DNA from: Streptomyces rimosus
GTDB taxonomy: Bacteria; Actinomycetota; Actinomycetes; Streptomycetales; Streptomycetaceae
NCBI RefSeq assembly: GCF_008704655.1
Contig: NZ_CP023688.1
Span: forward strand, 9,055,001-9,119,000
Direction: 5' to 3'
DNA: 64,000 nucleotides
The notes beneath the pieces are model-generated. The model saw only the letters and a list, made by a program, of their open reading frames with translations, was not told the DNA's origin and searched no databases. The position numbers and the translations under genes are program-made. This document shows positions 6,152-28,896 of the stretch, piece after piece. Positions within the stretch are counted from its first letter, which is position 1. The number at the start of each line of letters is the position of its first letter.

Positions 6152-6182
6152 CCGGAGCGAGACGCCGGGCGCACCGGCCCGT

Positions 6183-8210: not shown

Positions 8211-8300
8211 TCGCGGTCTGACCGCGGGGGGCCGGCCTGGTACGCCCGGCCTTGCACCCCGGCCGTCGTCATCCGCCCCCGGACGCGCGACACTCTTGCA

Positions 8301-8930: not shown

Positions 8931-8952
8931 GAACGTAGGCCCCCGGGCAGGA

Positions 8953-9926: not shown

Positions 9927-9964
9927 CTCGCCCCTCTCGTCAGGACTCAGCCTAAACCATGCAC

Positions 9965-9992
9965 TTGCTGTTGCACGCACCGCGTGCATAAT
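9965..9992 (+). promoter_or_regulatory. Promoter of the hydrolase overlapping a TetR-type operator
   Basis: TTGCTG (9965-9970) and CATAAT (9987-9992) are spaced by 16 bp and point toward the hydrolase at 10058. The dyad TGCACGC-ACC-GCGTGCA (9972-9988) lies exactly between and over the -10, a classic repressor position for the divergent TetR protein. Confidence 0.65.
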
Positions 9993-10057
9993 GAGGACGG
10001 CGCACTGTCCGGCCACAACGACGCACCCGGCCCTCGGCCGGGAGGAGAGAAGGACAC

Positions 10058-11020: not shown

Positions 11021-11241
11021 CGGGGAAACGGATGCAGCCCGCCCTTCGCCCTGACGGCCCGGCGGTATCGGCCTGGCATGTCCCCACGCGCCACCAGCGG
11101 CTTCACGGTCAGCCTCGGCGGGGCCGCGCTCCCGCCGAGGTTCACGCACAACCGGTATTCATTCGGCTACTGTTTGTGTTGCGACGCCGAATGGGTTGAG
11201 GCCGACCGTCGTAAACCGGCCCTCCCGGAAAGGAGATTGCC

Positions 11242-12066: not shown

Positions 12067-12090
12067 AGCCGGTAGGGGCCGGACGCCGGG

Positions 12091-12120
12091 CCGCCTCTCG
12101 CACTCCGTGCGAGACGGCGG
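12091..12120. terminator. Bidirectional hairpin terminator
   Basis: CCGCC-TCTCGCAC pairs with GTGCGAGA-C-GGCGG over a TCC loop: 13 pairs with a single bulged C. It lies between the convergent SDR (plus) and hydrolase (minus) genes and can serve both. Confidence 0.75.
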
Positions 12121-12206
12121 TCACCGGCGTATCACCATCCGGCATTGTGGTGATCGCCTCGGGGACGGTGCGGCCGGGCACCCGCCGCGAGGGACAGACC
12201 CCACCG

Positions 12207-12983: not shown

Positions 12984-13124
12984 GGCGAGCGTCTTTTCTT
13001 TGATGGGAACAGGTTTGATGGGAGCAGGGACGGAGCGGGAGCAGGGAAGGGGAGGGGAAGGAGAGGGGAAGGCGGTCGGACCGCGGTACGAAGGGGCGGG
13101 AGTTCCGACTTCCTGGGGTGGCCA

Positions 13125-14041
13125 TCACGCCTCGGCGGTCAGTTCGTCGCTCTCCGCGTCGCTCAGCCGCAGGGTTGCCGCCGCCAGGTTCTCCTCCAGG
13201 TGCGCGACCTTGGAGGTACCGGGGATGGGCCGGACAACCTGGGAGCGGGCCGGCAGCCAGGCCGGCGCCACCTGCGATGGGGCGGCGAGGTGGGTGGTCT
13301 CGATCCGGTCGACCGGGCCGCCCGTACGGGCCGGTTCACCCGGGCCACCGGCGCCCAGGGGATGAAGCCGATGCCGTGGCGGGTGCAGTACTCCAGGACA
13401 TCGGCGGAGCCGCGGTCGGTGAGGTTGTAGCGGTTCTGGGCAGTGGCGATTTCCGCGACCGCGCGGGCCTGCTCGATCTGGCCGACGGTGACCTGGGACA
13501 GCCCGATCGCGACGATCTTGCCCTCGTCCTGGAGCCCTCGTCCTCCTGAAGCCCTCATCCTGGAGCCTCTTCAGCTCGCCGACCTGGTCCTCCAGCGGGA
13601 TCTTCGGATCGACCCGGGCCAAACGGAAACAGGTCGATGTGGTCCAGACCGAGTCGGCGCAGACTCATCAGGGCTTGCCGGCGCAGGTACTCCGGACGCC
13701 CGACCGGCGGCCACGCCACCGGACCGAGGCGCACCGGTCCTTCGTCCGTCTCGATCACGTCGGGCCCGTTGCGGGTCGGCCCGGCCTTGGTCGCGATCAG
13801 CGCATCGTCGCGGTAGCGGAGGGATCGCCACCCGGACGGTCTCCTCGCTCACGTACGCGGTGTCGATCAGCTGCACGCCGAGCCCGACGGCGCGGCGCAC
13901 CATACGGACGCACTCCCGCCGGTCGTCGGGCTCGCCCCACACCCCCGGCCCGGTCAGGCGCATGGCGCCGAAACCGACACGGGCGACCTTCTTGCCGGTT
14001 ACCTCGAAGGTGCCGGCGGCGTCCGACAAAGAGGCGGTCAT
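13125..14041 (-). pseudogene. Aldo/keto reductase, broken by several frameshifts
   Basis: Consecutive blocks of one aldo/keto reductase are found in different minus-strand frames. They are VARVGFGAMRLTGPGVWG ... [35 protein letters not shown] ... [52 protein letters not shown] ... [16 protein letters not shown]; and [28 protein letters not shown]. Full length would be about 290-305 codons. Besides at least four frame changes, the DAYG part of the DTADAYG motif holding the catalytic Tyr is missing (DTAYVSEE). Its ATG overlaps the stop of the XRE gene (ATGA), so it was once translationally coupled. Sequencing errors could explain some shifts but not the missing motif. Confidence 0.8.
13521..13565. 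repeat. Imperfect triplicated short repeat inside the reductase pseudogene
   Basis: Three imperfect copies of CCCTCGTCCTGGAG lie in a row (13521-13534, 13535-13551, 13552-13565; the middle copy is 3 bp longer). They sit where the frame changes between LKRLQDEG and KIVAIG, so slipped-strand duplication is a likely cause of one frameshift. Confidence 0.6.
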
Positions 14042-14904
14042 GCTCGGAGTTCTTCTTCCTCTGCGGGAGCGGCCCGGTCCGCCGAGGCCGTTTCCCGCTC
14101 GGTCAGCCGGCGGAGCAGGACCAAGGCGTCGGCGCCGGCGCCGCCGGGTTCCGCGCTGTAGACGGACAGGTGCTGTCCGGGGGCGCTGGTGACGGCGAGC
14201 GCCTCGAAGTGCAGACGGATCTCTCCCACCCGCGGGTGGCGGGCGTGCTTGTCCTCGTGCGTACGGGGACGGACCTCGTAGCGCGCCCACAGGCCGGTGA
14301 ACGCGGGGCTGTGCACGCTCAGTTCGCCGACGACCCGCTCGATCCGCTCGTCCTTGGGGAACTGCGAGGAGGACGCCCGCAGGTTGCCCACCGCGATCCT
14401 CGCCGCGCGGTCCCAGTCGGCGTAGAACTCGCGCGCGTACGGGTCGAGGAAGATCATCCGCAGCAGGTTGTCGTACCGGGCGAAACCGTCGTACAGCTCT
14501 TTCGCCATCGCGTTGGCCGCCAGTACGTCCTGCGCCGCACCGACCACGAAGGCCGGCACCTCGCGCATGGCGTCCATCAGCCTCAGCAGCTCCGGAGCCA
14601 CGGTCGTCGCGGCAACGGCCGTTCCGAAGACGGACCGGCCCAAGCGGAACAGGTGGGCGTCCGCCGCGTCGTCGAGCCGCAGTGCCCCGGCGATCGCCCG
14701 CAGCACCTGCTCGGACGGGTGCCGCTCACGGCCCTGCTCCAGACGGATGTAGTAGTCCGTGCTCACCCCGGCCAGCAGCGCCACCTCGTCGCGCCGCAGC
14801 CCCGGCACCCGCCGGGGCCCGTCATCGGGCAGACCGGCATCCGCCGGCGCGACCGCCGCGCGACGGGCGCGCAGGTAGTCACCCAGTTCGTTCTCGCGTT
14901 CCAT
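14038..14904 (-). CDS. XRE-family regulator with MmyB-like ligand domain
   Basis: A 288-aa regulator from the ATG at 14904 (MERENELGDYLRARR); the frame extends upstream into the operator region. The N-terminal HTH (about residues 5-75) shows GLRRDEVALLAGVSTDYYIRLEQGRERHPSEQVL. Residues about 100-275 match the MmyB/PAS-like ligand domain of Streptomyces regulators (LLRMIFLDPYAREFYADWDRAA, ELSVHSPAFTGLWARYEV, HPRVGEIRLHFEAL). It probably controls the downstream aldo/keto reductase, now a pseudogene, which begins inside its stop codon. A 7-bp dyad 37 bp upstream of its start is a likely autoregulatory site. Confidence 0.9.
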   Translation of the reverse strand: MERENELGDYLRARRAAVAPADAGLPDDGPRRVPGLRRDEVALLAGVSTDYYIRLEQGRERHPSEQVLRAIAGALRLDDAADAHLFRLGRSVFGTAVAATTVAPELLRLMDAMREVPAFVVGAAQDVLAANAMAKELYDGFARYDNLLRMIFLDPYAREFYADWDRAARIAVGNLRASSSQFPKDERIERVVGELSVHSPAFTGLWARYEVRPRTHEDKHARHPRVGEIRLHFEALAVTSAPGQHLSVYSAEPGGAGADALVLLRRLTERETASADRAAPAEEEELRA

Positions 14905-14940
14905 GGCCGCCACACTAAAGTCCTCGCGCAGCTCAGGGCG

Positions 14941-14957
14941 TGGGTGCGCTGCACCCA
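14941..14957. promoter_or_regulatory. Dyad upstream of the XRE regulator
   Basis: TGGGTGC-GCT-GCACCCA is a perfect 7-bp inverted repeat upstream of the regulator. A related half-site pair (GGGTG ... GCACCC) lies near 14982-15001, suggesting two operator copies in this intergenic region. Confidence 0.55.
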
Positions 14958-15158
14958 CCCGGGGCCGTCAGCCCCGCGCCCTGGGTGGGCGCGGCGCACC
15001 CTCCCGCATCCGCGGCCGCCCTCGTAGCGTCGGCGCCATGAACGGTCGCGCCGCCGACCGCATACCGATGCCCCTGCCGTCCTCGTACGGGCAGATCGGG
15101 GCAAGCCGCTACGGCGGCCGTCCGCCGGCCCCTCCCTCTGCAGAACCGGAGTCCTTTC

Positions 15159-15599
15159 ATGCCCGAAGCATTCGCCGGCGCCGTCATCCCGGCCCCGGTC
15201 GCCACGGTCTGGCACGTGGTCCGCGACTTCGGCGGCCTGGCCACCTGGCAGCCGGCCGTCGCAGGCTGCGTCCTGGCGGAGGCGGAAGCCCCCGACCGCG
15301 TCGGTTGCGTCCGCACTCTGTCCATGGCCGACGGGGAGACCGTGGTCGAGTCCCTCCTGGCGCTGGACGACCACAGACGATCGCTGACTTACGGCATCGT
15401 CAGTTCCCCGTACGCAGTGCAGTCCTACCGGGCCACCATGCGGGTCGTGCCTCTTACCGCCACCGATGAGACGTTCGTCGCTTGGTCGGTGGACTTCGAC
15501 TGCGATCGCTCCAACACCGACGAGCTGACGGAAACCTTTCGGACCGGCATCCTCACAGCCGGATTGCGTGGCCTGGCCGAGCACTGTCGCAGACTGTGA
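15159..15599 (+). CDS. SRPBCC-family (polyketide cyclase/dehydrase-like) protein
   Basis: A 146-aa single START/Bet v1-like domain. It begins AGAVIPAPVATVWHVVRDFGGLATWQPAV, the usual first helix and loop of the MxaD/SRPBCC group, then GCVRTLSMADGETVVESLLALDDHRRSLTY and ends with a long C-terminal helix (ELTETFRTGILTAGLRGLAEHC). Such proteins hold hydrophobic ligands, and some assist cyclisation or dehydration. It is divergent from the XRE gene and ends at the strong terminator before the nucleoside cluster. There is no sign that it belongs to that cluster. Confidence 0.85.
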   Translation: MPEAFAGAVIPAPVATVWHVVRDFGGLATWQPAVAGCVLAEAEAPDRVGCVRTLSMADGETVVESLLALDDHRRSLTYGIVSSPYAVQSYRATMRVVPLTATDETFVAWSVDFDCDRSNTDELTETFRTGILTAGLRGLAEHCRRL

Positions 15600-15813: not shown

Positions 15814-17082
15814 TCACCGGTCCCCCTCCTGGGGGCCCGGGGTACGGGCTTCCGGGAGCCCCAGCGTGGTGTCGGCGACGAAGTCCACCGCCTCCTCCGG
15901 CGGCGAGTAAGGGGGCATGAAGGCCGCCGCCCGTACGTCGCGGTAGGCGCGGGCCAGGGGGTGGCGTGCCTGGTAACTCGCGCCGCCCGTCAGGCGCATG
16001 GCGAGGTCGACGACCGTCGTGGCGGCGCGCTCGACGGTCATGCTGACGAGCTGGCACTCCTTCATCATCGCCCGGCTCATGTCATCGGTGACCACCTGCG
16101 GCTTGTTGCGCAGCAGCAGCGAGTCGAAGTCCTGCAGCGCCGCGGAGAGTGTGCCGCGGGCCGCGGTCAGGGCGGCTTCCATCTCGGTGACGGCGGCCTT
16201 CACGGCCGATCCCGACCGCTTGCGGCTGGACGACGGCCTGGTCAGGGCCTCCAGCGCGTGATCGCGGGCGGCCTCGGCGATCCCGAGGCCGACGCCGTTG
16301 AGCCCCATGCCGCTGACCGCGCGGCCCTCCAGCATCCCGGCGTCCCGCTTGCCCCACGGCCCGCGTACCATCAGCGCGTTGTCGGGCACCACGCACTCGC
16401 TGAACAGGACGCTGCCGCTGCCGGAGCCGCGCAGTCCCAGCCCCTGCCAGTCGTCCTCGACCCGCACGCCCGGTGTATCGGCGGGGATCATGGCGCTGGC
16501 CAGGTGGTTCCCTTCGCCGCGTACCGCCTTGAGCCGGCAGTAGAAGTGGGTCGCGGCAGGGGAGACGGAGGCCAGGATCTTGTGGCCGTTGACCACCCAG
16601 CCGTTGTACGAGGCGGTCGCCGTGGTGGCCAGATTCCAGTAGTCGGCGCCGCGTTCGGCCACCGCCGAGCACAGCAGCATCCGGCGGCGGCCGATGGCTT
16701 CCAGCCACTCCGCCCGCGGCAGGTAGCCCGGCTCGCCGTCCGCCTCGAACCGTACGACGCGGGCGAAGTACCACGCCAGGGCGATGTGCATGTAGTAGGC
16801 GACCGCGACCGAGGCGTCGGCCCGGGCGATCCGGGACGTGATCACCGTCAGGTCGTGCAGCCGCTCGACGCCGAAACCGCCCAGGTCGGTGGGGACGCTC
16901 GCGGCGAACACCCCGGCGTCGACCAGCGCGTCCACGCTGTCCCGGGCGAAGCGGCCGTCCTGGTCGGTGGCCTCCGCCTGCTCGGTGAGGAAGTCCTGGA
17001 GTTTCGCGACCGCCGAGACCGCCTGCTCGCCACTCGCCGTGGCCGGCTGCAACTCGGAGTTCAGTGACAAGGAAATTGACAT
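15814..17082 (-). CDS. pumE: Acyl-CoA dehydrogenase-fold flavoprotein, candidate N-hydroxylase of the pum pathway
   Basis: A 422-aa protein from the ATG at 17082 (GAGGACGC upstream). The acyl-CoA dehydrogenase fold is clear: an N-terminal helical part, FAASVPTDLGGFGVERL, a beta domain with NGWVVNGHKILASVSPAATHFYC, and a C-terminal helical part. The C-terminus runs LTGGASYQARHPLARAYRDVRAAAFMPPYSPPEEA. It lacks the GTxEI-type end and the obvious catalytic Glu of true dehydrogenases. This is what flavin monooxygenases of the same fold show (nitrososynthase/N-hydroxylase and DszC-like groups). At the cluster position of pumE, a role in hydroxylating the amide nitrogen of pseudouridimycin is the best inference. 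An alternative is an amino-acyl desaturase. Confidence 0.72.
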   Translation of the reverse strand: MSISLSLNSELQPATASGEQAVSAVAKLQDFLTEQAEATDQDGRFARDSVDALVDAGVFAASVPTDLGGFGVERLHDLTVITSRIARADASVAVAYYMHIALAWYFARVVRFEADGEPGYLPRAEWLEAIGRRRMLLCSAVAERGADYWNLATTATASYNGWVVNGHKILASVSPAATHFYCRLKAVRGEGNHLASAMIPADTPGVRVEDDWQGLGLRGSGSGSVLFSECVVPDNALMVRGPWGKRDAGMLEGRAVSGMGLNGVGLGIAEAARDHALEALTRPSSSRKRSGSAVKAAVTEMEAALTAARGTLSAALQDFDSLLLRNKPQVVTDDMSRAMMKECQLVSMTVERAATTVVDLAMRLTGGASYQARHPLARAYRDVRAAAFMPPYSPPEEAVDFVADTTLGLPEARTPGPQEGDR

Positions 17083-17199
17083 TATCGCGTCCTCGGCGTT
17101 TGGCGGGCACCGGCGTCTTTTGGTCATCGTGCGTGGCGGGCACAGAGCTGGTAAGCGTGCCGACCGGGGTATTCCGGGAGATCAGATGAGGGCATTGCC

Positions 17200-17218
17200 C
17201 GGGATGTAAATTCCCGGT
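17200..17218. promoter_or_regulatory. Dyad in the divergent promoter region of the nucleoside cluster
   Basis: CCGGGA and TCCCGG form a 6-bp inverted repeat around a 7-nt AT-rich spacer. It sits in the 227-bp region between the divergently oriented flavoprotein gene and the regulator gene, the natural place for a cluster operator. Binding is not shown. Confidence 0.4.
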
Positions 17219-17309
17219 TACTGTGATCCCGGCCGGCGGAACGGTGAATTCTGTTTCTGGTGCCGATGTTCAGTTTCATGCACCACCGTTCGGGAGAAGG
17301 GTATGCATT

Positions 17310-18122
17310 GTGTGGACTGTGACGCTTCGGTTCTCCGGGTGGATTCTCGGGGACTTGGCTCGTCCGGCCGCGGCCGGACACTGCGAACTCACCGAGGGCG
17401 AAGGCGCGGTCATCCGGTACGACGAGGGGGCGGATTCCCTGGTCTTCGCCCCGGACACCGGCCCGCATCCGCATGGACTCGCCGTCGTCACGGCCCGGGA
17501 CGGACACTGGTGCCTGACGAACCTGCACGCCGAGGACACCTACTTCGTCGAGAACATGGAGAGCGGTGGGGAGTTCGTCAAGGTGGTGCCGCGCCGCCGG
17601 GACATACCCATTCCCTTCGAACTGGCCCGGATCGTTCTGCCGGTGCCGAAGGGAGCCGGGAAGGTCGACGTATTCGGTCCCGAACCGCATTACCTGGCTC
17701 CCTCCTCGCTGTCCGAAAGCGCCGCCAACTGGCCCCGGCTCGACGAAAGCTGTGTGTATTTCCGGGTCCTGGTCGCCCTGTGCGAACCCCAGTTGCGGGG
17801 TTCCCCGCCCGGCGCGGTGCCGACGATCGCCGAGGTGGTCGAACGGCTCAGGGGCTGCCGGCCCGTGTACCGGATCAGCCGGGCCGCGGTCAATCACCAC
17901 ATCGACTACCTGGCCACGCACAAGCTGCGGGTGGGCGAATGGGCCGGGGCCGCCGACGGGAAGCGCAGCTACTGGAAGCGCGAAGCGATCGTGGCGATGG
18001 CCCTGCGCTCCGGCCTGGTCGGGGAAGAGCACCTGAAGATGCTCCCCAACCAGCGCGTCACAGGGCGGCAAGCGCCTGACCCGTTACGCGCACCAGTTCC
18101 GCCACGCCGCTCTCGTCGATGA
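17310..18122 (+). CDS. pumF: FHA-like / winged-helix protein, likely cluster regulator
   Basis: A 270-aa protein from the GTG at 17310, chosen because GAGAAGG lies 9 bp upstream; the open frame extends further 5'. Residues about 1-115 look like a diverged FHA domain (SLVFAPDTGPHPHGLAVVTARDGHWCLTNLHAEDTYFVENM), which elsewhere binds phosphothreonine or other ligands. Residues about 165-245 form a winged helix (TIAEVVERLRG ... ISRAAVNHHIDYLATHKLRVGEW). It is the only regulator-like gene in the nucleoside cluster. Its 3' end overlaps the convergent aminotransferase gene by 65 bp. The symbol is by position in the cluster. Confidence 0.6.
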   Translation: MWTVTLRFSGWILGDLARPAAAGHCELTEGEGAVIRYDEGADSLVFAPDTGPHPHGLAVVTARDGHWCLTNLHAEDTYFVENMESGGEFVKVVPRRRDIPIPFELARIVLPVPKGAGKVDVFGPEPHYLAPSSLSESAANWPRLDESCVYFRVLVALCEPQLRGSPPGAVPTIAEVVERLRGCRPVYRISRAAVNHHIDYLATHKLRVGEWAGAADGKRSYWKREAIVAMALRSGLVGEEHLKMLPNQRVTGRQAPDPLRAPVPPRRSRR

Positions 18123-19380
18123 CCAGCGGCGGTATGGCCATCACGGCGGTGCCCTGCCGGCGCAGGAGCACACCGTGCGCCCTGGCCCCGGCGACCAGGT
18201 CCGCCGCCGCCTCGGGACGGGCACACTCGACCGTCGCCACCAGGCCCAGCCCCCGCACGTCGCTGACCTCCGGGTGGTCCAGCAGCGGGCGCAGGCCCGC
18301 CAGCAGCTGTTCGCCCAGTACCGCGGACGCTTCGACCAGCTTGCGTTCCTCGATGACGTCGAGCACGGCGCAGGCCACCGCACACGCCACCGCGTGTCCT
18401 CCCGTGGTGTGCCCGTACCGCAGGCCGCCGATCAGCGGATCGGCCGCGAAGGAGGAGTAGACCGCCTCCGTGGTCGTCAGCGCGGCGAACGGTACGTACC
18501 CGCCGCTCAGACCCTTGCTCATGGTGACCAGGTCCGGTGCGACGCCGTCGTGTTCGAAGCCGAACATCCGCCCGGTACGGCCGAATCCGCAGAACACCTC
18601 GTCCACGATCAGCAGGGCCCCGGTCCGGTCGCACAGGTCGCGCAGCGCCCGCAGGAGCCCGTCCGGCAGGATCACTCCTCCGCCGACGTTGAGGAGCGCC
18701 TCCACGAACACCGCCGCGGGCGGCGTGCCGTCGAGTACGGCGCGTTCGAACTCCTCGACCAGTACGGGCAGCGCCTCGGGCCTGCGCAGTTCCCTCGGCG
18801 GGAGCGAGGGCCGTACCCGGGTGACCGGGAAGGGCTCGCCGCCGTACACGGCGTTGGTCGGCAGCCCGGACAGGTGCTGGGCGACATAGGTCGTGCCGTG
18901 GTAGCCGGCGGCGAAGGTGACGATCCGGTTCCTGGGCTCGCCCTTGTTGGTCCAGTAGTTGTGCGCGATGCGCACCGCGGCCTCGGTCGCCTCCGAGCCG
19001 CTGTTGACGAACAGCGTACGGTCGAGCCCCTGCGGCAGCAGCGCGCCGATCCGCTCGGCGGCCCGTCCGACGGGCAGATGCGTGCCCACGCTCAGGTCGA
19101 AGTGCGGCAGCAGGGACATCTGCCGTTCGGCCGCCGCGATCAGCGCGGGGTGCGCGTGCCCGCAACTGGCGTTCATCGCCGACGCCATGGCGTCCAGGTA
19201 CTCGCGTCCTGCCGCGTCCCGTACGCGGTATCCCTGGCCGGACACCAGGACCGGACGGTCCTGGTCCGCACCGCCCACGGGGGACCACGGATGCCATACG
19301 TAGCGCCTGTCACGCTCACGGGCGCGGCCCTCGTCCATGTCGGCGGCCACGCCGGAGATCTCACCGTTGGTAAGCGACAT
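18058..19380 (-). CDS. pumG: Class III PLP aminotransferase, 5'-amino group formation
   Basis: A 440-aa pyridoxal-phosphate aminotransferase of the class III (omega) family. Features are HPALIAAAERQMSLL, NSGSEATEAAVRIAHNYW (PLP phosphate), YHGTTYVAQ, LIVDEVFCGFGRTG (Asp) and the Schiff-base Lys289 in MSKGLSGGYVP. The first ATG of MIVGMSL lies near GGAG, and the second (19380) is listed here. In the pseudouridimycin pathway as I recall it, this enzyme turns the 5'-aldehyde of oxidised pseudouridine into 5'-aminopseudouridine. It is divergent from the kinase gene 133 bp away and overlaps the regulator gene tail-to-tail. Confidence 0.85.
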   Translation of the reverse strand: MSLTNGEISGVAADMDEGRARERDRRYVWHPWSPVGGADQDRPVLVSGQGYRVRDAAGREYLDAMASAMNASCGHAHPALIAAAERQMSLLPHFDLSVGTHLPVGRAAERIGALLPQGLDRTLFVNSGSEATEAAVRIAHNYWTNKGEPRNRIVTFAAGYHGTTYVAQHLSGLPTNAVYGGEPFPVTRVRPSLPPRELRRPEALPVLVEEFERAVLDGTPPAAVFVEALLNVGGGVILPDGLLRALRDLCDRTGALLIVDEVFCGFGRTGRMFGFEHDGVAPDLVTMSKGLSGGYVPFAALTTTEAVYSSFAADPLIGGLRYGHTTGGHAVACAVACAVLDVIEERKLVEASAVLGEQLLAGLRPLLDHPEVSDVRGLGLVATVECARPEAAADLVAGARAHGVLLRRQGTAVMAIPPLVIDESGVAELVRVTGQALAAL

Positions 19381-19513
19381 GCCAACGATCATGCAGCTCC
19401 GCCGGGCCGCACACACCCGTACACCTGTCAGGGTGTCAATCCGCCGGTGGTCGGTGATCATGGCTGCGACGGCCGGCAGCGGCCCGTGGAACGGAGCGAG
19501 AGGAACGCCGACG

Positions 19514-20152
19514 GTGGTCTTGCACATGCTCAATCCGCAGGCGGCCCTGCCGCGCCGGCCGGACCGGGTGCTGGTCGCGGGCGGCAGCGGCGCGGGCAAG
19601 ACGACGGTCGCCGACAAATGCGCCGGCCTGCTGGCGCTGCCCCGTATCGAACTGGACGAGCTGTACTACGAGTCCGGCTGGCAGGTGCGTCCCGAGTTCC
19701 CCCAAGAGGTCGCCCGGGCGGCCGGACAGCCCCGCTGGGTCACGGAGTGGCACTACCCGGAGGTGGCCACCGTGCTCGCGCGCCGGGCGGATCTGCTCAT
19801 CTGGCTCGACTACCCGGTACGTACCACGATGACCAGCCTCGTGCTGCGGACCCTGCTGCGGTCGCTGCACAAGGAAGTGCTGTGGAGCGGAAACCAGGAA
19901 CCGCCGCTGCGGTCGGTGTTCACCGACCCGGAGAACATCCTCCGCTACGGCTGGGCCACCCGGCACTCGGCATCCGACCAGGTGCGGGCGCTGGCCCGCG
20001 ACGCCCCGGACATCGAACTGGACGTACTGCGCTTCACCCGGCCCGCCGACCTGTCGGGCTGGCTGCTGCGACTGGCCGGGACCTGGCCGGCACCGGCTTC
20101 GTCCGGACCGCACACTACGGAGAGGAGTACCGGTGCGTCAGGGCTTCGATGA
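19514..20152 (+). CDS. pumH: P-loop nucleoside/adenylate-kinase-like protein
   Basis: A 212-aa P-loop NTPase from the GTG at 19514 (GAGAGGA upstream; an ATG at 19526 is possible). The Walker A motif is GGSGAGKTT (Lys29). The pattern LPRIELDELYYESGW ... WVTEWHY ... ADLLIWLDYPVRTTMTSLVLRTLLR resembles the adenylate-kinase-like topology-modulation (FlaR) group. It opens the operon containing the oxidoreductase and pseudouridine synthase; its last 20 bp overlap the oxidoreductase start. A role in (de)phosphorylation balance of uridine/pseudouridine nucleotides is plausible, but the substrate is not evident. Confidence 0.75.
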   Translation: MVLHMLNPQAALPRRPDRVLVAGGSGAGKTTVADKCAGLLALPRIELDELYYESGWQVRPEFPQEVARAAGQPRWVTEWHYPEVATVLARRADLLIWLDYPVRTTMTSLVLRTLLRSLHKEVLWSGNQEPPLRSVFTDPENILRYGWATRHSASDQVRALARDAPDIELDVLRFTRPADLSGWLLRLAGTWPAPASSGPHTTERSTGASGLR

Positions 20153-21716
20153 CATCGTCGTCGGCGCGGGCCCGGCGGGAGTGGTGCTCGCGGCCCGTCT
20201 CTCGCAGGACCCGGACCGCCGGGTCCTGCTGATCGAGGCGGGCCCCGACTACCCGGACCCCGCCCGCCTGCCTGAAGACCTCCGCAACGGGTGCACCCCG
20301 TCGATGGTGGACCACGACTGGTCACTGACGGCCGAACGCCCGGACGGCGCCCGGCTGCCGCTGCCGCGGGGCCGGGTGGTCGGCGGCTCCTCGGCGGTGA
20401 ACAGCTGTATCGCGCTGCGCCCCGAACCGGAGGACTTCGCCCGGTGGACGGAGCTGACGGGCGGCACCGACTGGTCATGGCCGGACGTCCTGCCGTACTT
20501 CACCGGGCTGGAAAGCGACGCGGACTTCTCGGGCCCCCACCACGGCTCCGGCGGACCGCTGCCGCTGCGCCGGCCCGCACGCTCCGAGTTCTCCCCGCTG
20601 TCGGCCGCCCTGGTGGAGGCCGCGACCGCCGTCGGCCATCCGTACGTCGCCGACCACAACGCGCCCGGGTCCGCCGGTGTCGGGCCGCTGCCGCTGAACC
20701 TCGCCGACGGCGGACGCCGCGTCTCCGCCGTGGCCGCCTATCTCGATCCCGCGCGCGGCCGGCCCAACCTGACGATCGCGGCCGACACCCTGGTCGACCG
20801 GGTGCTGTTCGAAGGAAACACCGCGACCGGTGTCGTGACGGTCTCCGCGGGCCGCACCACGCGGGTGTACGGAGACCGGGTCACCCTGTGCGCCGGCGCC
20901 TACGCGACCCCCGCGCTGCTGCACCGCTCCGGCGTCGGACCGGCCGCGCACCTGCGCTCGCTCGGCGTGGACGTCGTCGCCGACCTGCCGGGCGTCGGCG
21001 CCGGGCTGTCGGACCACTCCCAGGTCCCCATCGGCGTCATCCCCGTCCCCGGACTGTGCGATCCGTCCGACCCGTGCGCGCAGGTCGTCCTGCGGTACAC
21101 GGCACCGGGCTCGGACCTCCCCAACGACATGCAGCTCTACGTACTCAACCACGTGGAACTCGACGTGTACGCCCCGCACCTGGCCGACCGGGTGCCCGGC
21201 GGCCGGGCGTTCATGGTGACCTCCAACCTCATGGCACCCCGGGGCCGGGGAACCGTCACCGCGGTCTCCCGCTCCCCGGAGGTACTGCCGCGCGTCAGCA
21301 TCGACTACACCGCGGACGCGGAGGACCTGCGCCGTCAGCGGGCCGGGGTCGGGCTGTGCCGGGAACTGCTGCGGCAGCCCCCGTTCACCGCGCTGACCAA
21401 GGAACTCATCGGCATGGACGCCGTGGACGCGGAGGCGGCCGGCTCGTCCGAGCGGCTGGATGACTACATCCGCCAGGCGGCACGGACGGCGCACCACCCC
21501 ATGGGCACCGCCAGGATCGGTCCCGCCCACGACTCGGACGCCGTGGTGGACGGCCGCTGCCGGGTCCATGGCACCGAGCGGCTCCAAGTGGCCGACGCCT
21601 CGGTCATACCGGTGCCGATACGGGCCAACACCCACCTGGTCGCCCTCGTCATCGGCGAACGGGTCGCCGCGTGGTCCGCCCAGGAACACACCGGACGCGA
21701 GGGGAGCGGAACATGA
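20133..21716 (+). CDS. pumI: GMC-family FAD oxidoreductase, nucleoside 5'-alcohol oxidation
   Basis: A 527-aa glucose-methanol-choline oxidoreductase. The N-terminal FAD motif is IVVGAGPAGVVLAARLSQDP followed by LLIEAGPDY. The GMC signature is PRGRVVGGSSAVNSCIALR. The C-terminal catalytic His is in AARTAHHPMGTARIG, and RANTHLVALVIGERVA carries the second catalytic His/Asn position. The GTG start has GAGAGGAG upstream, inside the end of the kinase gene. Its own TGA overlaps the ATG of the pseudouridine synthase gene, so translation is coupled. The expected role is oxidation of the 5'-OH of pseudouridine to the aldehyde used by the aminotransferase. Confidence 0.88.
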   Translation: MRQGFDDIVVGAGPAGVVLAARLSQDPDRRVLLIEAGPDYPDPARLPEDLRNGCTPSMVDHDWSLTAERPDGARLPLPRGRVVGGSSAVNSCIALRPEPEDFARWTELTGGTDWSWPDVLPYFTGLESDADFSGPHHGSGGPLPLRRPARSEFSPLSAALVEAATAVGHPYVADHNAPGSAGVGPLPLNLADGGRRVSAVAAYLDPARGRPNLTIAADTLVDRVLFEGNTATGVVTVSAGRTTRVYGDRVTLCAGAYATPALLHRSGVGPAAHLRSLGVDVVADLPGVGAGLSDHSQVPIGVIPVPGLCDPSDPCAQVVLRYTAPGSDLPNDMQLYVLNHVELDVYAPHLADRVPGGRAFMVTSNLMAPRGRGTVTAVSRSPEVLPRVSIDYTADAEDLRRQRAGVGLCRELLRQPPFTALTKELIGMDAVDAEAAGSSERLDDYIRQAARTAHHPMGTARIGPAHDSDAVVDGRCRVHGTERLQVADASVIPVPIRANTHLVALVIGERVAAWSAQEHTGREGSGT

Positions 21717-22759
21717 CCGGCACCTTGGTGCTCAAGCACCGCCCGGAGGACTTCCGGGTACGCGAGAACCTGGTCCTGGCGCTGACCGACGAGGCCGCCG
21801 CCGACCAGCGTTACCTCCTGCTGCACAAGCGCGGTTACACCACGATGGAGGCCGTGCGGCTGGTGGCGGACCGGCTCGGGGTACCCAGCCGCGACGTGGG
21901 CTACGCCGGCCTCAAGGACGAGGACGGCATCACGGAGCAACTGCTGTCCGTACCGCTGAAGGTGCCTGCCGCGCTCGGCGAACTGACATCGGCGGGACTC
22001 GTCGAGGAGAGGGGCCCGGACCGGCTGCTGAGCCTGAGCCACTACGGCTACGGGCGTGAGCCGCTGCGCGTCGGCCGGCTCAACGGCAACGGATTCCGGG
22101 TGGTACTGCGCGGCCTGGACGAGACGACCGCCGCCCGCCTCGCGGACCGGCACCGGATGAACCTGCTGTTCGTCAACTACTACGACACCCAGCGCTTCGG
22201 CGTCCCAGGCGGTCCCAAACGCACCCACCTGGTCGGCGAGGCCCTGCTGAAGGAGGACTGGGCGCTGGCGCGGCGGGAACTGGCCGGGCTCGGCGCTCCG
22301 GAAAGCGGGATCGCCGAGCGGTGGGACGGCACGGACCAGGACCTCTTCCGCGAACTCGACCCCAGGACCGTGGCCTTCTACTTGGCCGCGCACTCCTCGT
22401 ACGAATGGAACGCCCAGGTGCGGGAGCTGGTGGCCACCAGCTGCCCCGAGGAGTCCGCGGAGACCCGCGTCGACGGCCTGCCCTACCGCTTCCCCACCAC
22501 CGGGCGGGCCGTGGCGGCGCTCCTGGCGGCCTGCCACGAACTGCCGTACATGCGCTACGCGTACCAGGACGGGCCCGTGGAGCGTCCCACGGTGCGTCCC
22601 ACCGTGATCCAGACGACGGTGACCGCCGAGGAGGAGGGGCCGGACGAGGAGTTCCCCGGGCGCCGTGCTGTGGAGGTGAGCTTCCTGCTGCCGTCCGGCT
22701 GCTACGCCACCGCGGCGCTGCGGCAACTGATCGCCCAGTGCTCGGAGCCCGTGTCCTAG
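21713..22759 (+). CDS. pumJ: TruD-family pseudouridine synthase, C-nucleoside formation
   Basis: A 348-aa enzyme of normal TruD length (E. coli TruD is about 350 aa). Family motifs: HRPEDFRVRE at the start; GYAGLKDEDGITEQ with the catalytic Asp69 in AGLKD; LNGNGFRVVLRG; NYYDTQRFG; and a central insertion domain. TruD normally makes pseudouridine 13 in tRNA and is not usual in Streptomyces. Within this cluster it matches PumJ, the committed step of pseudouridimycin synthesis. It may act on a uridine nucleotide or on RNA that is later degraded; the sequence does not say which. The ATG overlaps the upstream TGA (ATGA). The C-terminal part (about residues 270-348) is diverged from housekeeping TruD. 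Confidence 0.93.
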   Translation: MTGTLVLKHRPEDFRVRENLVLALTDEAAADQRYLLLHKRGYTTMEAVRLVADRLGVPSRDVGYAGLKDEDGITEQLLSVPLKVPAALGELTSAGLVEERGPDRLLSLSHYGYGREPLRVGRLNGNGFRVVLRGLDETTAARLADRHRMNLLFVNYYDTQRFGVPGGPKRTHLVGEALLKEDWALARRELAGLGAPESGIAERWDGTDQDLFRELDPRTVAFYLAAHSSYEWNAQVRELVATSCPEESAETRVDGLPYRFPTTGRAVAALLAACHELPYMRYAYQDGPVERPTVRPTVIQTTVTAEEEGPDEEFPGRRAVEVSFLLPSGCYATAALRQLIAQCSEPVS

Positions 22760-22850
22760 CTCCGGTCGGGCGCCCCCGCTGGAAGGCGCCACGCGTTACC
22801 GGAATGCCCTAGTAGCTCCTCCCTCTGCCCCTGCCCCGGAGAGACCGTCC

Positions 22851-24056
22851 ATGGCGTTGCTGCTGCTCAACCGCAGGCCCATACTCCCGTACCTGCCGGC
22901 CTGGTTGCCGGAGGCGTCCCTGATCGTCCTGACGGCGAAGTCCGCCCTGACCGGGCCCTGGCCCTGCCCGCCGGAGGAGTGCTTCACACGGCTGGTGACC
23001 GTGGACGACTACGCGTCGGCCGAGGTCGACGAGCTGATCGACACGCTCTGCGCGGACGAGGACGTGGAACGGGTGATCACCACGGCGGAGATCGACGTGG
23101 TGCGGGCGGCGCGGGCCAGGGAACGCCACGGGCTGCCCGGCCAGACGGTGGCCGGTGCCCTGGCCTACCGGGACAAGTACCGGATGAAGGCGCTGGCGGC
23201 CCGGCAGGGCGTCCCGGTGCCCCCCATGGCCCTGGTGCGCGACACCGGCGAACTGCGGTCCTTCGCGGCGGTCCACGGTCTGCCGGTGGTGGTCAAACCG
23301 GCGGACGGCGCCGGCTCGGTCGGGGTCCGGGTACTGCGCGACCACCGCGCTGTAGGGGAGTGCGAGCTTCCCGGCGACGGCACCTGGCTGGCCGAACGCT
23401 TCGTGGACGGCGTGGTGTGCCACGTGGACGGGCTGATGGCGAAGGGGGAGGTGCTGCACGGCATCGCGTCGCGCTACCTGCACGCCAACCTCGACACGGC
23501 GACCCACGGCGCCCCGAGCATCAGCGGCATGCTGACACCGTCGGACCCCCTCGCGGACCGGCTGGCCGGTGCGACCGCCGCCGTGGTCGCCGCGCTGCCC
23601 GCCGTGGAGGAAGTGACCGCCTTCCACGCCGAGTTCTTCCACATGCCGGACGACGGACTCCTCCTGTGCGAGATCGCCTGCCGTCCCGGCGGCTGCGGGA
23701 TCGTGGAGGCGTACGAACTCGCCACGGGAGTCAACCTCTACGCCGCGCACCTGCGCGGACAGGCCGGGCTGCCGGTCGGCGTACCGGATCGGGACGGCGC
23801 CCGTTCCCGGTACGGATGGGCCTGGTTCCCGCCCCGGCGCGGCATGCTGCGGCACCTGCCCGCCGCCTGCCCCTTGCCCCGCGCCCACCGCTTCGCCGCG
23901 TACGGCGTGGTGGGCACGTCCTACCAGGGGCCCGGGTCCAGTACGGACAGCGTCGCCGAGCTGATCTTCCGCGTCGACGGTGGCGAGGAGGTCGAGCCGC
24001 AACTGCGAGCGGTCGAGGACTGGTGGTCGGGGGAGGCGTTGTGGGAGACCGGCTGA
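22851..24056 (+). CDS. pumK: ATP-grasp amide ligase
   Basis: A 401-aa ATP-grasp ligase (carbamoyl-phosphate-synthase-like ATP-binding fold). Features are VITTAEIDVVRAARARE, DKYRMKALAARQGVPVPPMALV, the ATP lysine region LPVVVKPADGAGSVGVRVL, WLAERFVDGVVCHVDGLM and the metal-binding HAEFFHMPDDGLLLCEIACRPGG. These enzymes activate a carboxylate as acyl phosphate and join it to an amine. In pseudouridimycin one ligase attaches glutamine to aminopseudouridine and another adds guanidinoacetate; which is which is not readable here. It starts 91 bp after the synthase gene with a weak ribosome site, and the exporter gene overlaps its 3' end. Confidence 0.85.
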   Translation: MALLLLNRRPILPYLPAWLPEASLIVLTAKSALTGPWPCPPEECFTRLVTVDDYASAEVDELIDTLCADEDVERVITTAEIDVVRAARARERHGLPGQTVAGALAYRDKYRMKALAARQGVPVPPMALVRDTGELRSFAAVHGLPVVVKPADGAGSVGVRVLRDHRAVGECELPGDGTWLAERFVDGVVCHVDGLMAKGEVLHGIASRYLHANLDTATHGAPSISGMLTPSDPLADRLAGATAAVVAALPAVEEVTAFHAEFFHMPDDGLLLCEIACRPGGCGIVEAYELATGVNLYAAHLRGQAGLPVGVPDRDGARSRYGWAWFPPRRGMLRHLPAACPLPRAHRFAAYGVVGTSYQGPGSSTDSVAELIFRVDGGEEVEPQLRAVEDWWSGEALWETG

Positions 24057-25402
24057 CCTCGGAGACGGAAGGGTCGGGTGGCATGGGAGGTACGGACGCC
24101 GCCGGCGAGGGGCGCGGCGCGGCCGACGCCCCCGGCGAACCGGTGACCCGGCCCGTGGCGCGTACGGGTGCCTTCATGACGGCGATGGTCGTGGACGCCG
24201 TGGGCAGCGGCGTGTGGATCACCTTCTCCCTGCTCTACTTCACCTACGGCCAGGGCATGGCACTGACCACCGCCGGCTCCGCGCTGAGCACGGGAGCGCT
24301 GGCCGCGCTGCTGGCGGGCGGGCTGGCCGTCGGAGTGATCACGGACCGGATGGGGCCGTTCCCGGCCGCGACGCTCAGCTGCGCGCTGCGGGCCGTGGGC
24401 TTCCCCTGTTACCTGCTGGCGGACACCCCGGTGACGGTCGCCGCCATCGCCTTCACCATCAGCTTCGGCGACCGGCTTTACTGGGCGGCACACGCGGGCC
24501 TGGTCGACAGCGTCACCGCCACCCAGCACGCGCAGCGCGGCCTGTTCGCCCTGATGAACTCCCTGCGCAACGTCGGCCTCGGGGTGGGCGCGCTGGCCGT
24601 GGCCCTGGGCGCCTCCTTCCAGGAAGCCGGCGGCGCCACCCTGTGGCACGCCATCCCCCTGGTCAACGCGGCGAGCTTCGCCGTCGCCGGGATGATGTTC
24701 CGCTGGGTGGGGCGGCCCCTGAGGGCGGCACCCGTACCACGCAAGGGCGCGGGAGACCGGCCCTCCTACCGGGGGGTCCTGGCCAACCGCCCCTTCCTCG
24801 CCTTTACCGGCGCCACCTTGTCCATCACCCTCTCCAGCGTCGCCTTCGACTCGATCCTGCCCGTCTACCTCCGCTCACTGGAAATGCCGCTGTGGCTGCC
24901 CCCCGTGGCCTACGTGCTGTCCTGTGTGGCGATCCCGGCGTTCCAGCCACTGGCCCTGTGGCTGGGCCGCAGGTACCGGCCGATGCGGCTGATGGCGCTG
25001 GCCGCCGTGCTCATCGCGGTCTCGCTGGCGTCCCTGGTCCCGCTCGGCCGGTTCGACAAGGCCGGCGCCACGGTCTGGATCGCGCTGACCGTCCTGGTGT
25101 TCAGCCTGGGCGAGGCAGTGTTCGGGGCGGTCGCCATGACCATCGTGCTGTCGTTCGCCACCCGGCAGGACGCCGGGCGCTACAGCGCTCTGTACCAGCT
25201 CGCGTGGGGACTGTCGGGGGCGCTCGGCCCCGGTGTGCACACGCTGCTGCTGTCGGCGTCGGGCAGCGCGCCGTGGACCGTCATGGCGTGCGCGCTGCTC
25301 CTGGGCGCCGCCGTCTATCTCAGGCTCGCGCGGACGACACCGTGCGCGCGGACAGCCGGGCCGCGCGACGGTGATCCGGCCGGCCGGAAGGGACAGCGAT
25401 GA
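24041..25402 (+). CDS. pumL: Major facilitator superfamily exporter
   Basis: A 453-aa integral membrane protein from the GTG at 24041, preceded by GGGGGAGG and overlapping the ligase gene by 16 bp; an ATG at 24083 is possible. About 12 hydrophobic segments are visible, starting AFMTAMVVDAVGSGVWITFSLLYF and LAALLAGGLAVGVITDRMGP (the loop 2-3 MFS motif is GVITDRMG). No periplasmic or second subunit is needed. Positioned between two ligase genes, it most likely exports the finished nucleoside antibiotic and contributes to self-resistance. The next gene starts within its stop (ATGA). Confidence 0.88.
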   Translation: MGDRLTSETEGSGGMGGTDAAGEGRGAADAPGEPVTRPVARTGAFMTAMVVDAVGSGVWITFSLLYFTYGQGMALTTAGSALSTGALAALLAGGLAVGVITDRMGPFPAATLSCALRAVGFPCYLLADTPVTVAAIAFTISFGDRLYWAAHAGLVDSVTATQHAQRGLFALMNSLRNVGLGVGALAVALGASFQEAGGATLWHAIPLVNAASFAVAGMMFRWVGRPLRAAPVPRKGAGDRPSYRGVLANRPFLAFTGATLSITLSSVAFDSILPVYLRSLEMPLWLPPVAYVLSCVAIPAFQPLALWLGRRYRPMRLMALAAVLIAVSLASLVPLGRFDKAGATVWIALTVLVFSLGEAVFGAVAMTIVLSFATRQDAGRYSALYQLAWGLSGALGPGVHTLLLSASGSAPWTVMACALLLGAAVYLRLARTTPCARTAGPRDGDPAGRKGQR

Positions 25403-26832
25403 CCAGCACCACCGGGCGGGCCCCGGGATCACGCCCGCAGGACACCGAGGACACCCCGCTTTCCGGGGCCGACGCGGAGGAGGCCGACCTCCTCGGCACC
25501 GTGAACCAGGCACTGCGGCGCCTGTGGTCCGGTCGCGGCGTGGTACTCCTGCTCGACGACTTCGACCACCGGGCCACTTCGCTCGTCGGCGAACTGCGGG
25601 CGTGCGGCGCACGGGTGGAAGCGGTGCTCTCGCGCACCGGTCCGGGGCCCGGGGCACCTGCCGTCCCCCACAGCCGCCAGTGCCGGGAATCCGGCCCGGA
25701 GATGACCCGGCCCGAGTTCGAGGCATGGCTGCGGAACCCGTCCCAGGAGGTACGGCGGTGGCTGGACGGGCTGGACCCCGAACGGCGCTGGCTGGCACTC
25801 GGCACCCCCCGCACGGGAGTCGCCGAGTTCCTCGGGCGGAAGGTGTACGGGTGGCGGCGCCCCAAATGGGCCGCCGTCGAGGACAAGACCACCATCGACC
25901 GGCTGTGGGACGCCGCCGGAGTGGCCTCGCCGCCCCATGTCGTCGTCGACGTCGAGGCGCTGCGGCGGGCGCCGGAGGAGATCGGGATCGGGAAGATCGC
26001 CGGACCAGCCGGCGTCGTGGCCGCCGCCGACTCCACGCGCGGTCATGTCGGCGATTCGCTGGGACTGCGCTGGGTCCCCGACCCGGACAGGTTCCAGGAG
26101 TCCGTACGTGACCTCGCCGACCGGGCCGACCGGGTACGGATCGCCCGCTTCGCGGACGGCGTGCCGTGCAGCGTGCTCGGTATGGCGCTGCCCGACGGCA
26201 TCGCGGTGTTCGCACCGATCGAGATCGTCACCCTCGGCGACCCGGCCACCGGCAGGCTGCTGTTCTGCGGCTCCTCCACCCACTGGCGGCCGGGTGCGTC
26301 CGCCGAACGCGAGATGCGCGACGCCACGCGGCGCGCGGGCCGGGAACTGGTCCGCACCACCGGTTACCGCGGCATCTTCAGCGTGGACGGGCTGCTGACA
26401 CCCGACGGCTTCACGGCCACCGAACTCAACCCGCGGCACGCCTCCGGCCTCGGTCTGCGGGCCGCGCTGCCGGACTTCCCGGTCTACCTGTTCAACCGGG
26501 CGGTTCAGGAGGAGCTGCCCGGGCTGGAGGGGATCCGCAGCGCCGCGCTCGAACGGGTCGTACGCCGTGCGGTGGCGGCGGCGCCGTCGTATGCGCTGAC
26601 GGTGCCCGTGGCGCGTACCGGCCACGCGGACGGCGCCGCGGACGGCGCCGCGCGGCTCCGGCACGGCGGATCGGTGATCGATTACCGCACGGCGGACGGC
26701 GTCGCGGCGCTGACCGCCATCTCGCCCCCCGCACCGGGCCACCGCGCCGGGCCCGCCTGTGCCGCCCTCGCCGCCCATCTGGGCGACCCCGGACTGCGCT
26801 GTTTCCCGCTGGGGACCGGGGGCGCGGACTGA
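25399..26832 (+). CDS. pumM: ATP-grasp amide ligase, second
   Basis: A 477-aa ATP-grasp protein whose ATG overlaps the exporter TGA. The N-terminal ~150 residues form a pre-ATP-grasp domain (VVLLLDDFDHRATSLVGELRACG). Then come AVEDKTTIDRLWDAAGVASPP, GPAGVVAAADSTRGHVGDSL, RIARFADGVPCSVLGMALPDGIAVFAPIE and the metal site YRGIFSVDGLLTPDGFTATELNPRHASG. This last stretch, with E and N on the final strand, is the most recognisable ATP-grasp element. It is probably the ligase that forms the second amide of pseudouridimycin. It differs strongly from the ligase at 22851, so the two did not arise by recent duplication. Confidence 0.82.
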   Translation: MTSTTGRAPGSRPQDTEDTPLSGADAEEADLLGTVNQALRRLWSGRGVVLLLDDFDHRATSLVGELRACGARVEAVLSRTGPGPGAPAVPHSRQCRESGPEMTRPEFEAWLRNPSQEVRRWLDGLDPERRWLALGTPRTGVAEFLGRKVYGWRRPKWAAVEDKTTIDRLWDAAGVASPPHVVVDVEALRRAPEEIGIGKIAGPAGVVAAADSTRGHVGDSLGLRWVPDPDRFQESVRDLADRADRVRIARFADGVPCSVLGMALPDGIAVFAPIEIVTLGDPATGRLLFCGSSTHWRPGASAEREMRDATRRAGRELVRTTGYRGIFSVDGLLTPDGFTATELNPRHASGLGLRAALPDFPVYLFNRAVQEELPGLEGIRSAALERVVRRAVAAAPSYALTVPVARTGHADGAADGAARLRHGGSVIDYRTADGVAALTAISPPAPGHRAGPACAALAAHLGDPGLRCFPLGTGGAD

Positions 26833-26977
26833 CCCGGCCGTATGGAGAGCGAAGACCACGGCGCACCGGTACCGGAAACCCCGAACACCGGAATGCGCCA
26901 GTAATGAGACGCACGAGCACGGATTGACACGAGCACGGAAGCACCCGCACCGAAGCGCGAACGAAAGGGCGTACACC

Positions 26978-28144
26978 ATGAGCCGGCCGACGAACCTGGT
27001 CAATTCCTGGAACGAATGGGACCCGCTGCGCGAAATCGTCGTCGGAGTCGCCGACAACGCCTGCTTCGAGCCGACCGAGCCCGGTCACCGGCCGCAGCTG
27101 CGTACCCCGGACGGCGGTTCGGCTCCCTTCCCGACCGGACCCAAACCGGCCGAGATGATCGAGCGTGCCAATGAGCAGCTGGACGGCTTGGTGAGGCTGC
27201 TGGAATCGCAGGGCGTCACCGTCCACCGGCCCGTGGCGCCCGACCTGGCGAGCCCGCTGCGCACGCCGGACTTCCAGGTGGAGAACCAGTACTGCGTGGT
27301 GTGCCCCAGGGACGTCATGATCACGCTCGGCAACGAGATCATCGAGGCCACGATGTCCCGCCGCGCCCGCTACTTCGAATACCAGGCGTACCGCAAACTG
27401 GTCTACTCGTACTGGAACAACGACCCCGGCATGGTGTGGACCGTGGCGCCCAAACCGTCGATGGCCGACTCCATGTACCGCCAGGAATTCTGGGAATGGC
27501 CGCTGGAGGAGCGGCACCGCCGGATGCACTCCTCGGAATTCTGCGTCACGCAGGACGAGGTGGTATTCGACGCCGCCGACATCAGCCGGTTCGGCCGCGA
27601 CATCGTCGTACAGGAGTCGATGACCACCAACCGCTCGGGCATCCACTGGCTCAAGCGCCACCTGGAGCCGCGCGGATTCCGGGTTCACCCGGTGCACTTC
27701 CCGCTCGACTTCTTCCCCTCGCACATCGACTGCACCTTCGTGCCGCTGCGGCCGGGTCTGGTGCTGACCAACCCCGAACGGCCGCTGCGCGAGGGCGAGG
27801 AACAGCTGTTCCTGCGCAACGGCTGGGAACTGGTCGACGTGCCCCAGCCGACGTCGACCAACGACGAGATGCCCAAGTACTGCCAGTCCTCGAAGTGGCT
27901 GTCGATGAACGTGCTGAGCATCTCCCCGACGAAGGTGGTGTGCGAGGAGCGGGAGAAGCCGCTGCAGGACCTGCTCGACAAGCTCGGGTTCGAGGTCTTC
28001 CCCGTGCCCTTCCGCGACGTCTTCGAATACGGCGGATCGCTGCACTGCGCCACCTGGGACGTCAACCGGGAGGGAACGGCCGAGGACTACTTCCCCGTCA
28101 ACGACTACCGGCCGCTCGCCGAAGGGCCTCGAATTCTCGGGTGA
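26978..28144 (+). CDS. pumN: Arginine:glycine amidinotransferase
   Basis: A 388-aa amidinotransferase from the ATG at 26978 (CGAAAGGG upstream). The family start NSWNEWDPLREIVVGVADNA, the FDAADISRFGRDIVVQ strand, the catalytic HIDCTFVPLRPG segment (His, Asp) and the nucleophile Cys357 in GGSLHCATWDV are all present. It transfers the amidino group of arginine to an amine. In the pseudouridimycin pathway the acceptor is glycine, giving guanidinoacetate for a ligase. It lies 145 bp after the second ligase gene and is followed by a perfect hairpin terminator. Confidence 0.92.
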   Translation: MSRPTNLVNSWNEWDPLREIVVGVADNACFEPTEPGHRPQLRTPDGGSAPFPTGPKPAEMIERANEQLDGLVRLLESQGVTVHRPVAPDLASPLRTPDFQVENQYCVVCPRDVMITLGNEIIEATMSRRARYFEYQAYRKLVYSYWNNDPGMVWTVAPKPSMADSMYRQEFWEWPLEERHRRMHSSEFCVTQDEVVFDAADISRFGRDIVVQESMTTNRSGIHWLKRHLEPRGFRVHPVHFPLDFFPSHIDCTFVPLRPGLVLTNPERPLREGEEQLFLRNGWELVDVPQPTSTNDEMPKYCQSSKWLSMNVLSISPTKVVCEEREKPLQDLLDKLGFEVFPVPFRDVFEYGGSLHCATWDVNREGTAEDYFPVNDYRPLAEGPRILG

Positions 28145-28209
28145 CGGATGGCCCGCGCGGCTCGGACGGCCCGCACGGCCCGCACGGCCCGCGCGGCCTG
28201 GACGTCGGA

Positions 28210-28241
28210 GAGGCGGAGCCGGACGCACCCGGCTCCGCCTC
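28210..28241. terminator. Perfect 13-bp-stem terminator, end of the nucleoside cluster
   Basis: GAGGCGGAGCCGG pairs perfectly with CCGGCTCCGCCTC across the loop ACGCAC. It lies between the convergent amidinotransferase and nucleotidyltransferase-like genes and can serve both. The preceding 28150-28200 is a short GGCCCGCAC-type repeat tract. Confidence 0.85.
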
Positions 28242-28269
28242 CCGGCGCCCCGCCATCACCGTCCGCCGC

Positions 28270-28896
28270 CTACGGGCGGGCGTACCACCGGTCGAACTCA
28301 TCGGCCGTCGTGGCCCCGCCCTCCAGCACCGCGCGGTAGACCTCGTAACTGGGCACCCGCCCGCCGCCGTCGGGCCGCAGGGCCAGCGCCTGTTTGATCC
28401 GCAGGATGCGCGCCCGATGGGCGTCCGTCAGCCGCGGCGGCAGCGTACGGACATGTGCCAGGTCGGGCTGGCGGTCCGGCTCGTCCACGAACCAGATGTC
28501 CAGGGTCCACTCCCGCCCGGCCTCGGAGCGGCAGTCGACGTTGAGGTACAGCCCGTCCGGATAGCCGGGATCGGTGTTCCAGCGCCCGGTGTCGTCGCGG
28601 AAGCACACCTGCCGCACGCGGTCGTGCACGGCTAATTCGGCCCCGATCCCGGCCACCGCCCGCTTCGTGCGGTCCGTCAGCTCCGGGCAGATCACCGTGA
28701 TGTCGAGATCCGGCACCACCATCAGCCCCAGGGCCGCGCTTCCCACCCGCACGGCCTCCCCTTCCTCCGACAACAGCCGCGCCAGCCCCAGGTCGGCACT
28801 GACCGCATCGGCCTCGGCCTGCAACTCCGCCTGCCGCGCCGCCAGCCGCTCATCGCTCAGCTCCCCGCCACTGCCCACCGACGCGCTCACGCTCAT
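28270..28896 (-). CDS. Nucleotidyltransferase-fold hypothetical protein
   Basis: A 208-aa soluble protein. The segment VRVGSAALGLMVVPDLDITVIC has the GSxxxG ... DxD layout of the Pol-beta nucleotidyltransferase fold, with a possible third acid in WTLDIWFVDEPDRQPDL. The C-terminal part is helical (ARILRIKQALAL ... YEVYRAVLEGGATTADEFDRWY). Such proteins transfer nucleotidyl groups to small molecules, drugs or proteins, but the exact family is not clear to me. It lies just outside the pum terminator and is convergent with pumN, so membership in either cluster is unproven. Confidence 0.7.
   Translation of the reverse strand: MSVSASVGSGGELSDERLAARQAELQAEADAVSADLGLARLLSEEGEAVRVGSAALGLMVVPDLDITVICPELTDRTKRAVAGIGAELAVHDRVRQVCFRDDTGRWNTDPGYPDGLYLNVDCRSEAGREWTLDIWFVDEPDRQPDLAHVRTLPPRLTDAHRARILRIKQALALRPDGGGRVPSYEVYRAVLEGGATTADEFDRWYARP

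Follow-up and report, generated by a model that had tools for sequence, protein, structure and literature searches.

Pseudouridimycin (PUM) is known from Streptomyces rimosus ATCC 10970 and from Streptomyces sp. ID38640. On the published ATCC 10970 chromosome (9,365,899 bp) the PUM cluster is listed as biosynthetic gene cluster (BGC) 44, at 9,075,785-9,088,816, followed by an NRPS cluster, BGC 45, from 9,091,105, and the oxytetracycline cluster is found at 628,015-655,782 (PMC9045324). A further report assigns BGC 44 to pseudouridimycin and BGC 45 to momomycin (PMC13098539). Although pumA-D form part of the ID38640 cluster, they are reported to be missing in S. rimosus, where PUM is nevertheless detected (PMC9045324), at about 200 µM, comparable to ID38640 (PMC7955054). 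The sap cluster of S. albus DSM 40763 corresponds to the same core, with sapJ-sapU matching pumE-pumO (PMC6586884), and S. eurocidicus ATCC 27428 and S. mobaraensis DSM 40847 are also reported PUM makers.

Published work on these relatives (PMC7955054, PMC7835738, PMC10127198, PMC8724604) describes a pathway in which pseudouridine is supplied by PumJ together with the kinase PumH, its 5'-OH is oxidized by PumI, and transamination of the PumI product by PumG gives 5'-aminopseudouridine. PumK then adds glutamine, PumE carries out N-hydroxylation, PumN makes the guanidinoacetate that PumM attaches, and PumL exports the product, a competitor of UTP at bacterial RNA polymerase. The role of PumF is most likely that of a regulator that binds DNA.

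Here, we describe a pum locus in an S. rimosus genome. Our analysis establishes gene content, order, homology and some key residues, and provides features that point to the organism; the enzymatic steps and PUM production are taken from the published work on relatives.

Results

Gene content and genomic setting

The window, by which we mean the whole 64,000-bp stretch of DNA analyzed, covers bases 9,055,001-9,119,000 of a 9,361,154-bp contig. Open reading frames combined with homology place eleven genes, pumE to pumO, at window positions 15814-28896 (Table 1). An earlier interpretation of the bare letters (the sequence-only reading) had proposed a complete-looking set of ten genes, pumE to pumN, and open reading frames for all ten are indeed present in 15814-28144; what it left out was the eleventh gene, pumO. 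An automatic GC-frame picker retained eight of the ten, overlooking pumH and pumL, which were then placed by homology. For pumL, we rejected the longest overlapping frame (23980-25374), which gave zero family matches, in favor of the frame ending at 25402, which matches MFS_1 at 3.6e-27.

Table 1. Features of the pum locus in window coordinates, with predicted roles
Feature	Position	Strand	Description
pumE	15814..17082	-	N-hydroxylase, acyl-CoA-dehydrogenase fold; start uncertain, longest ORF from 17127
pumF	17310..18122	+	270-aa regulator, FHA-like and LuxR-type HTH domains; longest ORF from 17223
pumG	18058..19392	-	5'-oxo-pseudouridine aminotransferase; start placed via 7qzj alignment
palindrome ACCCGTACACCTGTCAGGGT	19415..19434	.	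20-bp, imperfect; candidate regulatory site in divergent pumG/pumH gap
pumH	19526..20152	+	P-loop nucleoside kinase; alternative start 19460
pumI	20133..21716	+	GMC oxidase acting on pseudouridine 5'-OH
pumJ	21713..22759	+	TruD-type pseudouridine synthase
pumK	22851..24056	+	ATP-grasp Gln ligase
pumL	24083..25402	+	MFS exporter; start about 24083
pumM	25399..26832	+	ligase for guanidinoacetate attachment
pumN	26978..28144	+	arginine:glycine amidinotransferase
pumO	28270..28896	-	conserved protein, role not assigned

The locus shares pumE-pumO with the ID38640 cluster, down to equal overlaps of 20 bp between pumH and pumI and of 4 bp between pumI and pumJ (PMC7955054). A family search of ten flanking ORFs found no family resembling pumA-D. 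Relative to BGC 44 of ATCC 10970, the cluster is of the same type, lies likewise near 9.07 Mb, spans about 13 kb and adjoins an NRPS cluster; its pumE end, at 9,070,814, falls 4,971 bp earlier. The published chromosome also exceeds the present assembly in length by 4,745 bp, and given both this and the shift of about 5 kb, the present one therefore represents another assembly or strain than the published ATCC 10970. Elsewhere in the genome, an OtrB-type protein (563/563 positions of the NCBIfam OtrB model, 1292 bits) is encoded at ~630.8-632.5 kb, the expected position of the oxytetracycline cluster of S. rimosus. To the right of pumO, window positions 29046-64000 hold a P450 gene and giant NRPS frames that by position correspond to the published BGC 45. 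The giant frame from 31263 carries condensation and AMP-binding domains within the 5,000 residues searched, and its start is ~130 bp off that predicted for BGC 45 by the coordinate shift.

The individual proteins fall into the expected families. The best PDB matches of PumE are the FAD-dependent oxidoreductase 4kcf/3m9v and the nitrososynthase 3mxl. PumG is a class-III aminotransferase whose alignment to PDB 7qzj covers 438 residues (E 4.4e-214), and in this alignment, assuming a 10-residue numbering offset, it keeps the active-site Lys and the substrate Trp. Judging from the match and the residue numbering, 7qzj is probably SapH, whose key residues are reported as Lys289 and Trp32 (PMC10127198). 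PumH has weak P-loop kinase matches in Pfam, PumI has GMC oxidoreductase domains, PumJ matches TruD at 5.8e-39, and PumK has ATP-grasp matches. PumM gave zero Pfam matches at 1e-3 and a weak biotin-carboxylase/ATP-grasp-like NCBIfam match (1.7e-5), and a Pfam search with PumO returned zero matches. PumN aligns with the arginine:glycine amidinotransferase (AGAT) 1jdx (E 1.1e-84), including the Asp, His and Cys active-site stretches, which we take to be catalytic. The families named in the sequence-only reading thus held up, apart from PumF, which it had described as an FHA/winged-helix protein and for which we find FHA and LuxR-type HTH domains.

Conservation and phylogenetic placement

All eleven genes recur, collinear and in the same orientation, in five further loci from Streptomyces, where the proteins are 59-87% identical to those of the window. 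Together with the overlaps equal to those of ID38640, this agreement goes beyond what chance would give. Four were located by tblastn, in S. eurocidicus ATCC 27428 (L002), S. albireticuli (L003), S. albus NRRL B-1811 (L004, through which we made the comparison with the sap cluster) and genome G051 (L018), and the fifth (L028, genome G1046) has the same eleven-gene arrangement. Across the five, identities are 78-83% for PumE, 62-67% for PumF, 69-71% for PumH, 71-73% for PumI, 64-68% for PumK, 71-76% for PumL, 59-72% for PumM and 72-74% for PumO, with PumM in L018 (59%) and PumN in L028 (87%) as the extremes. The flanks are different: six left-flank proteins and the right-side P450 have no syntenic match in L002, L003, L004 or L018, where the two weak hits were the P450 (31% in L003) and an SDR protein (33% in L018), and the genes flanking the S. 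albus locus differ from those here.

The sequence-only reading had also named results that would speak against it, namely TruD, amidinotransferase and ligase proteins outside the pum clades or a lack of synteny with characterized producers; none of these occurred, the ligases PumK and PumM being compared by synteny and by the identities given above. In a tree of 89 TruD-like sequences (79 of the best 120 of 246 matches, plus 10 from the loci and window), PumJ sits in a 14-member pum clade (support 98/95) with the five syntenic loci. Beside this clade branches a TruD-like protein of Actinomyces sp. Lu 9419 (P0027, B5SP78; 58% identity). A quick tree built from 66 amidinotransferases places PumN in a 14-member clade that takes in all six pum loci (SH-aLRT 98).

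The same reading called such clusters rare. By number this stands, since pumJ was detected at E <= 1e-20 in 4 of 392 Streptomyces genomes, the present one counted, but similar clusters have been described as seemingly widely spread across Streptomyces (PMC6586884). At the same threshold, pumJ occurred in 1 of 394 genomes of a class-level sample, namely the present genome, and PumM in 8 of 394 of a family-level sample, where it reached at least 74% identity in three (the present genome, G946 and G1046); these samples overlap partly, and the counts are kept separate rather than pooled.

Because the genes present, their order, strands and overlaps, the positions in the trees and the conserved key residues all fit, we read the locus as a complete pseudouridimycin cluster. 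Specifically, we assign a probability of about 97% to its being the PUM cluster of S. rimosus, probably of ATCC 10970 or a close strain, published as BGC 44; both cluster and product are thus already known for ATCC 10970 (PMC9045324, PMC7955054). That the product is instead a PUM congener, for example mainly deoxy-PUM or a compound with another side chain, would be consistent with PumK and PumM being among the less conserved proteins and with deoxy-PUM having been described as a possible shunt product of the pathway. We nevertheless regard a congener as very improbable, as PUM itself is reported from ATCC 10970 and pumE is intact and well matched in all five loci. Least probable of all is a TruD-type cluster for a different C-nucleoside, for instance malayamycin. 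Malayamycin biosynthesis is reported to use a TruD-like synthase and a relative of PumH, MalE, but this reading is contradicted by the full synteny of the ordered pumE-O set and by the identity of TruD relatives beyond the pum clade, at most 59% among the matches listed (120 of 246).

PumF and a conserved palindrome in the pumG/pumH gap

PumF has been called a putative Ser/Thr kinase in one place in print and a regulator in another. Many of its homologues are annotated "serine/threonine protein kinase." PumF itself has no Pfam match up to E 5 and no NCBIfam match at 1e-3, kinase domains included. Its predicted structure consists of a beta sandwich and a small helical domain, which we read as an FHA domain and a LuxR-type HTH domain. 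On this model, PumF would be a DNA-binding protein, which fits the published regulator reading. An N-terminal FHA and a C-terminal LuxR-type HTH domain is the arrangement that defines the SsaA class, and PumF shares this architecture with the regulators SsaA, NpsM, PacA and Mur33 (41% identity to Mur33).

Sites recognized by SsaA presumably follow the consensus GTMCTGACA-N2-TGTCAGKAC. Tried as a candidate PumF site, this consensus was not enriched: its one match in the window, with 3 mismatches, lies within pumO, and 3 of 100 shuffles contained at least one such match. The 14-bp core of the same assumed consensus was not enriched either (10 found versus 18.1 expected). Instead, a different 20-bp palindrome is conserved. 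At 19415-19434, the pattern ACCCGTACA-N2-TGTNAGGGT is exact in 6/6 pum loci, of which three (S. eurocidicus, S. albireticuli and L028) are near relatives, and 17 of the 20 positions do not vary across the six, compared with 10% of the left 40 bp and 27.5% of the right 40 bp. A second short block common to the loci, CGGTGATCRTG, lies 17 bp beyond the palindrome. A 20-bp dyad centered on ACA-N2-TGT, as in this palindrome, is what we assume to be the form of an SsaA site, and lux boxes are likewise 20 bp long.

Across the 9.36-Mb genome the palindrome is matched exactly at a single place, and no other place came under 3 mismatches, although the scan is partly circular, the pattern having been derived from the same aligned loci. 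The scan returned ten rows (the site itself, its other strand at 3 mismatches and eight other places at 3), and a backward-read control pattern returned four. Within the six loci, no other place lies under 5 mismatches to the palindrome; 20 simple shuffles of part of the window gave a mean of 1.85 matches at <=5 mismatches. Two observations hold apart from this circularity: the palindrome is conserved far better than its flanks, and the rest of the genome contains no place under 3 mismatches.

Tentatively, and with somewhat more doubt than confidence, we propose that ACCCGTACA-N2-TGTNAGGGT is the PumF operator, such that a single site carrying a DNA code of its own would serve as the switch for PUM synthesis, operated by an SsaA-class protein and not by a kinase. 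That PumF binds the palindrome is our inference, and published genetic data on PumF bear on it. A ΔpumF mutant of ID38640 is reported still to yield pseudouridine and aminopseudouridine, so pumG-J can function without PumF, and these metabolites speak against PumF as a simple activator at the palindrome. A one-promoter construct that still benefited from pumF also counts against the operator reading. We found no mention of such a box in the portions of the literature on PumF and SsaA that we consulted.

Partial pum-like and TruD-like loci elsewhere

Outside the six complete loci, a Kitasatospora-like genome (G902) holds a partial pum-like set together with other tailoring genes (L029, positions 943-15599). 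Its proteins resemble TruD (54% identity), PumK (50%), PumL (31%), PumM (48%), PumN (78%) and PumH (38%); a second PumK-like frame shares an ORF with a methyltransferase, and EPSP-synthase-family, 2OG-oxygenase and aminotransferase genes are also present. Across the 19.9 kb, PumE, F, G, I and O had no match at E 1e-4, and a palindrome search gave no match within 5 mismatches. Perhaps this set makes another C-nucleoside. One literature search returned no paper on a TruD-type C-nucleoside locus in Kitasatospora.

Four further loci contain a PumM-like ligase and no TruD match: one in G282 also has a PumN-like protein (L030, 176-11273; 74%), one has two PumK-like stretches (L031), one has weak PumE- and PumH-like stretches (L032), and in one the ligase stands alone (L033). 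TruD-like genes with 32-48% identity to PumJ occur in Longimycelium (L005), Streptomyces sp. UNOB3_S3 (L006), Sinosporangium (L007), Plastoroseomonas (L008) and Saccharibacteria (L009). PumH-like stretches lie near the TruD-like gene in Longimycelium and Sinosporangium, and the latter also has PumE- and PumG-like stretches. These five are possible unstudied C-nucleoside loci, although the TruD-like genes of Plastoroseomonas and Saccharibacteria may be ordinary tRNA enzymes.

Discussion

The sequence-only reading took the locus for a pseudouridimycin-type set fitting pumE-pumN, and its content, order, strands and overlaps match the published clusters. A known antibiotic pathway was thus recognized correctly without prior information, with nothing new on its product. 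For the regulator, PumF gains an interpretation based on its modeled structure, together with a single candidate site in the DNA. More broadly, partial sets of the kind seen in the Kitasatospora-like genome, accompanied by other tailoring genes, point to possible related C-nucleosides.
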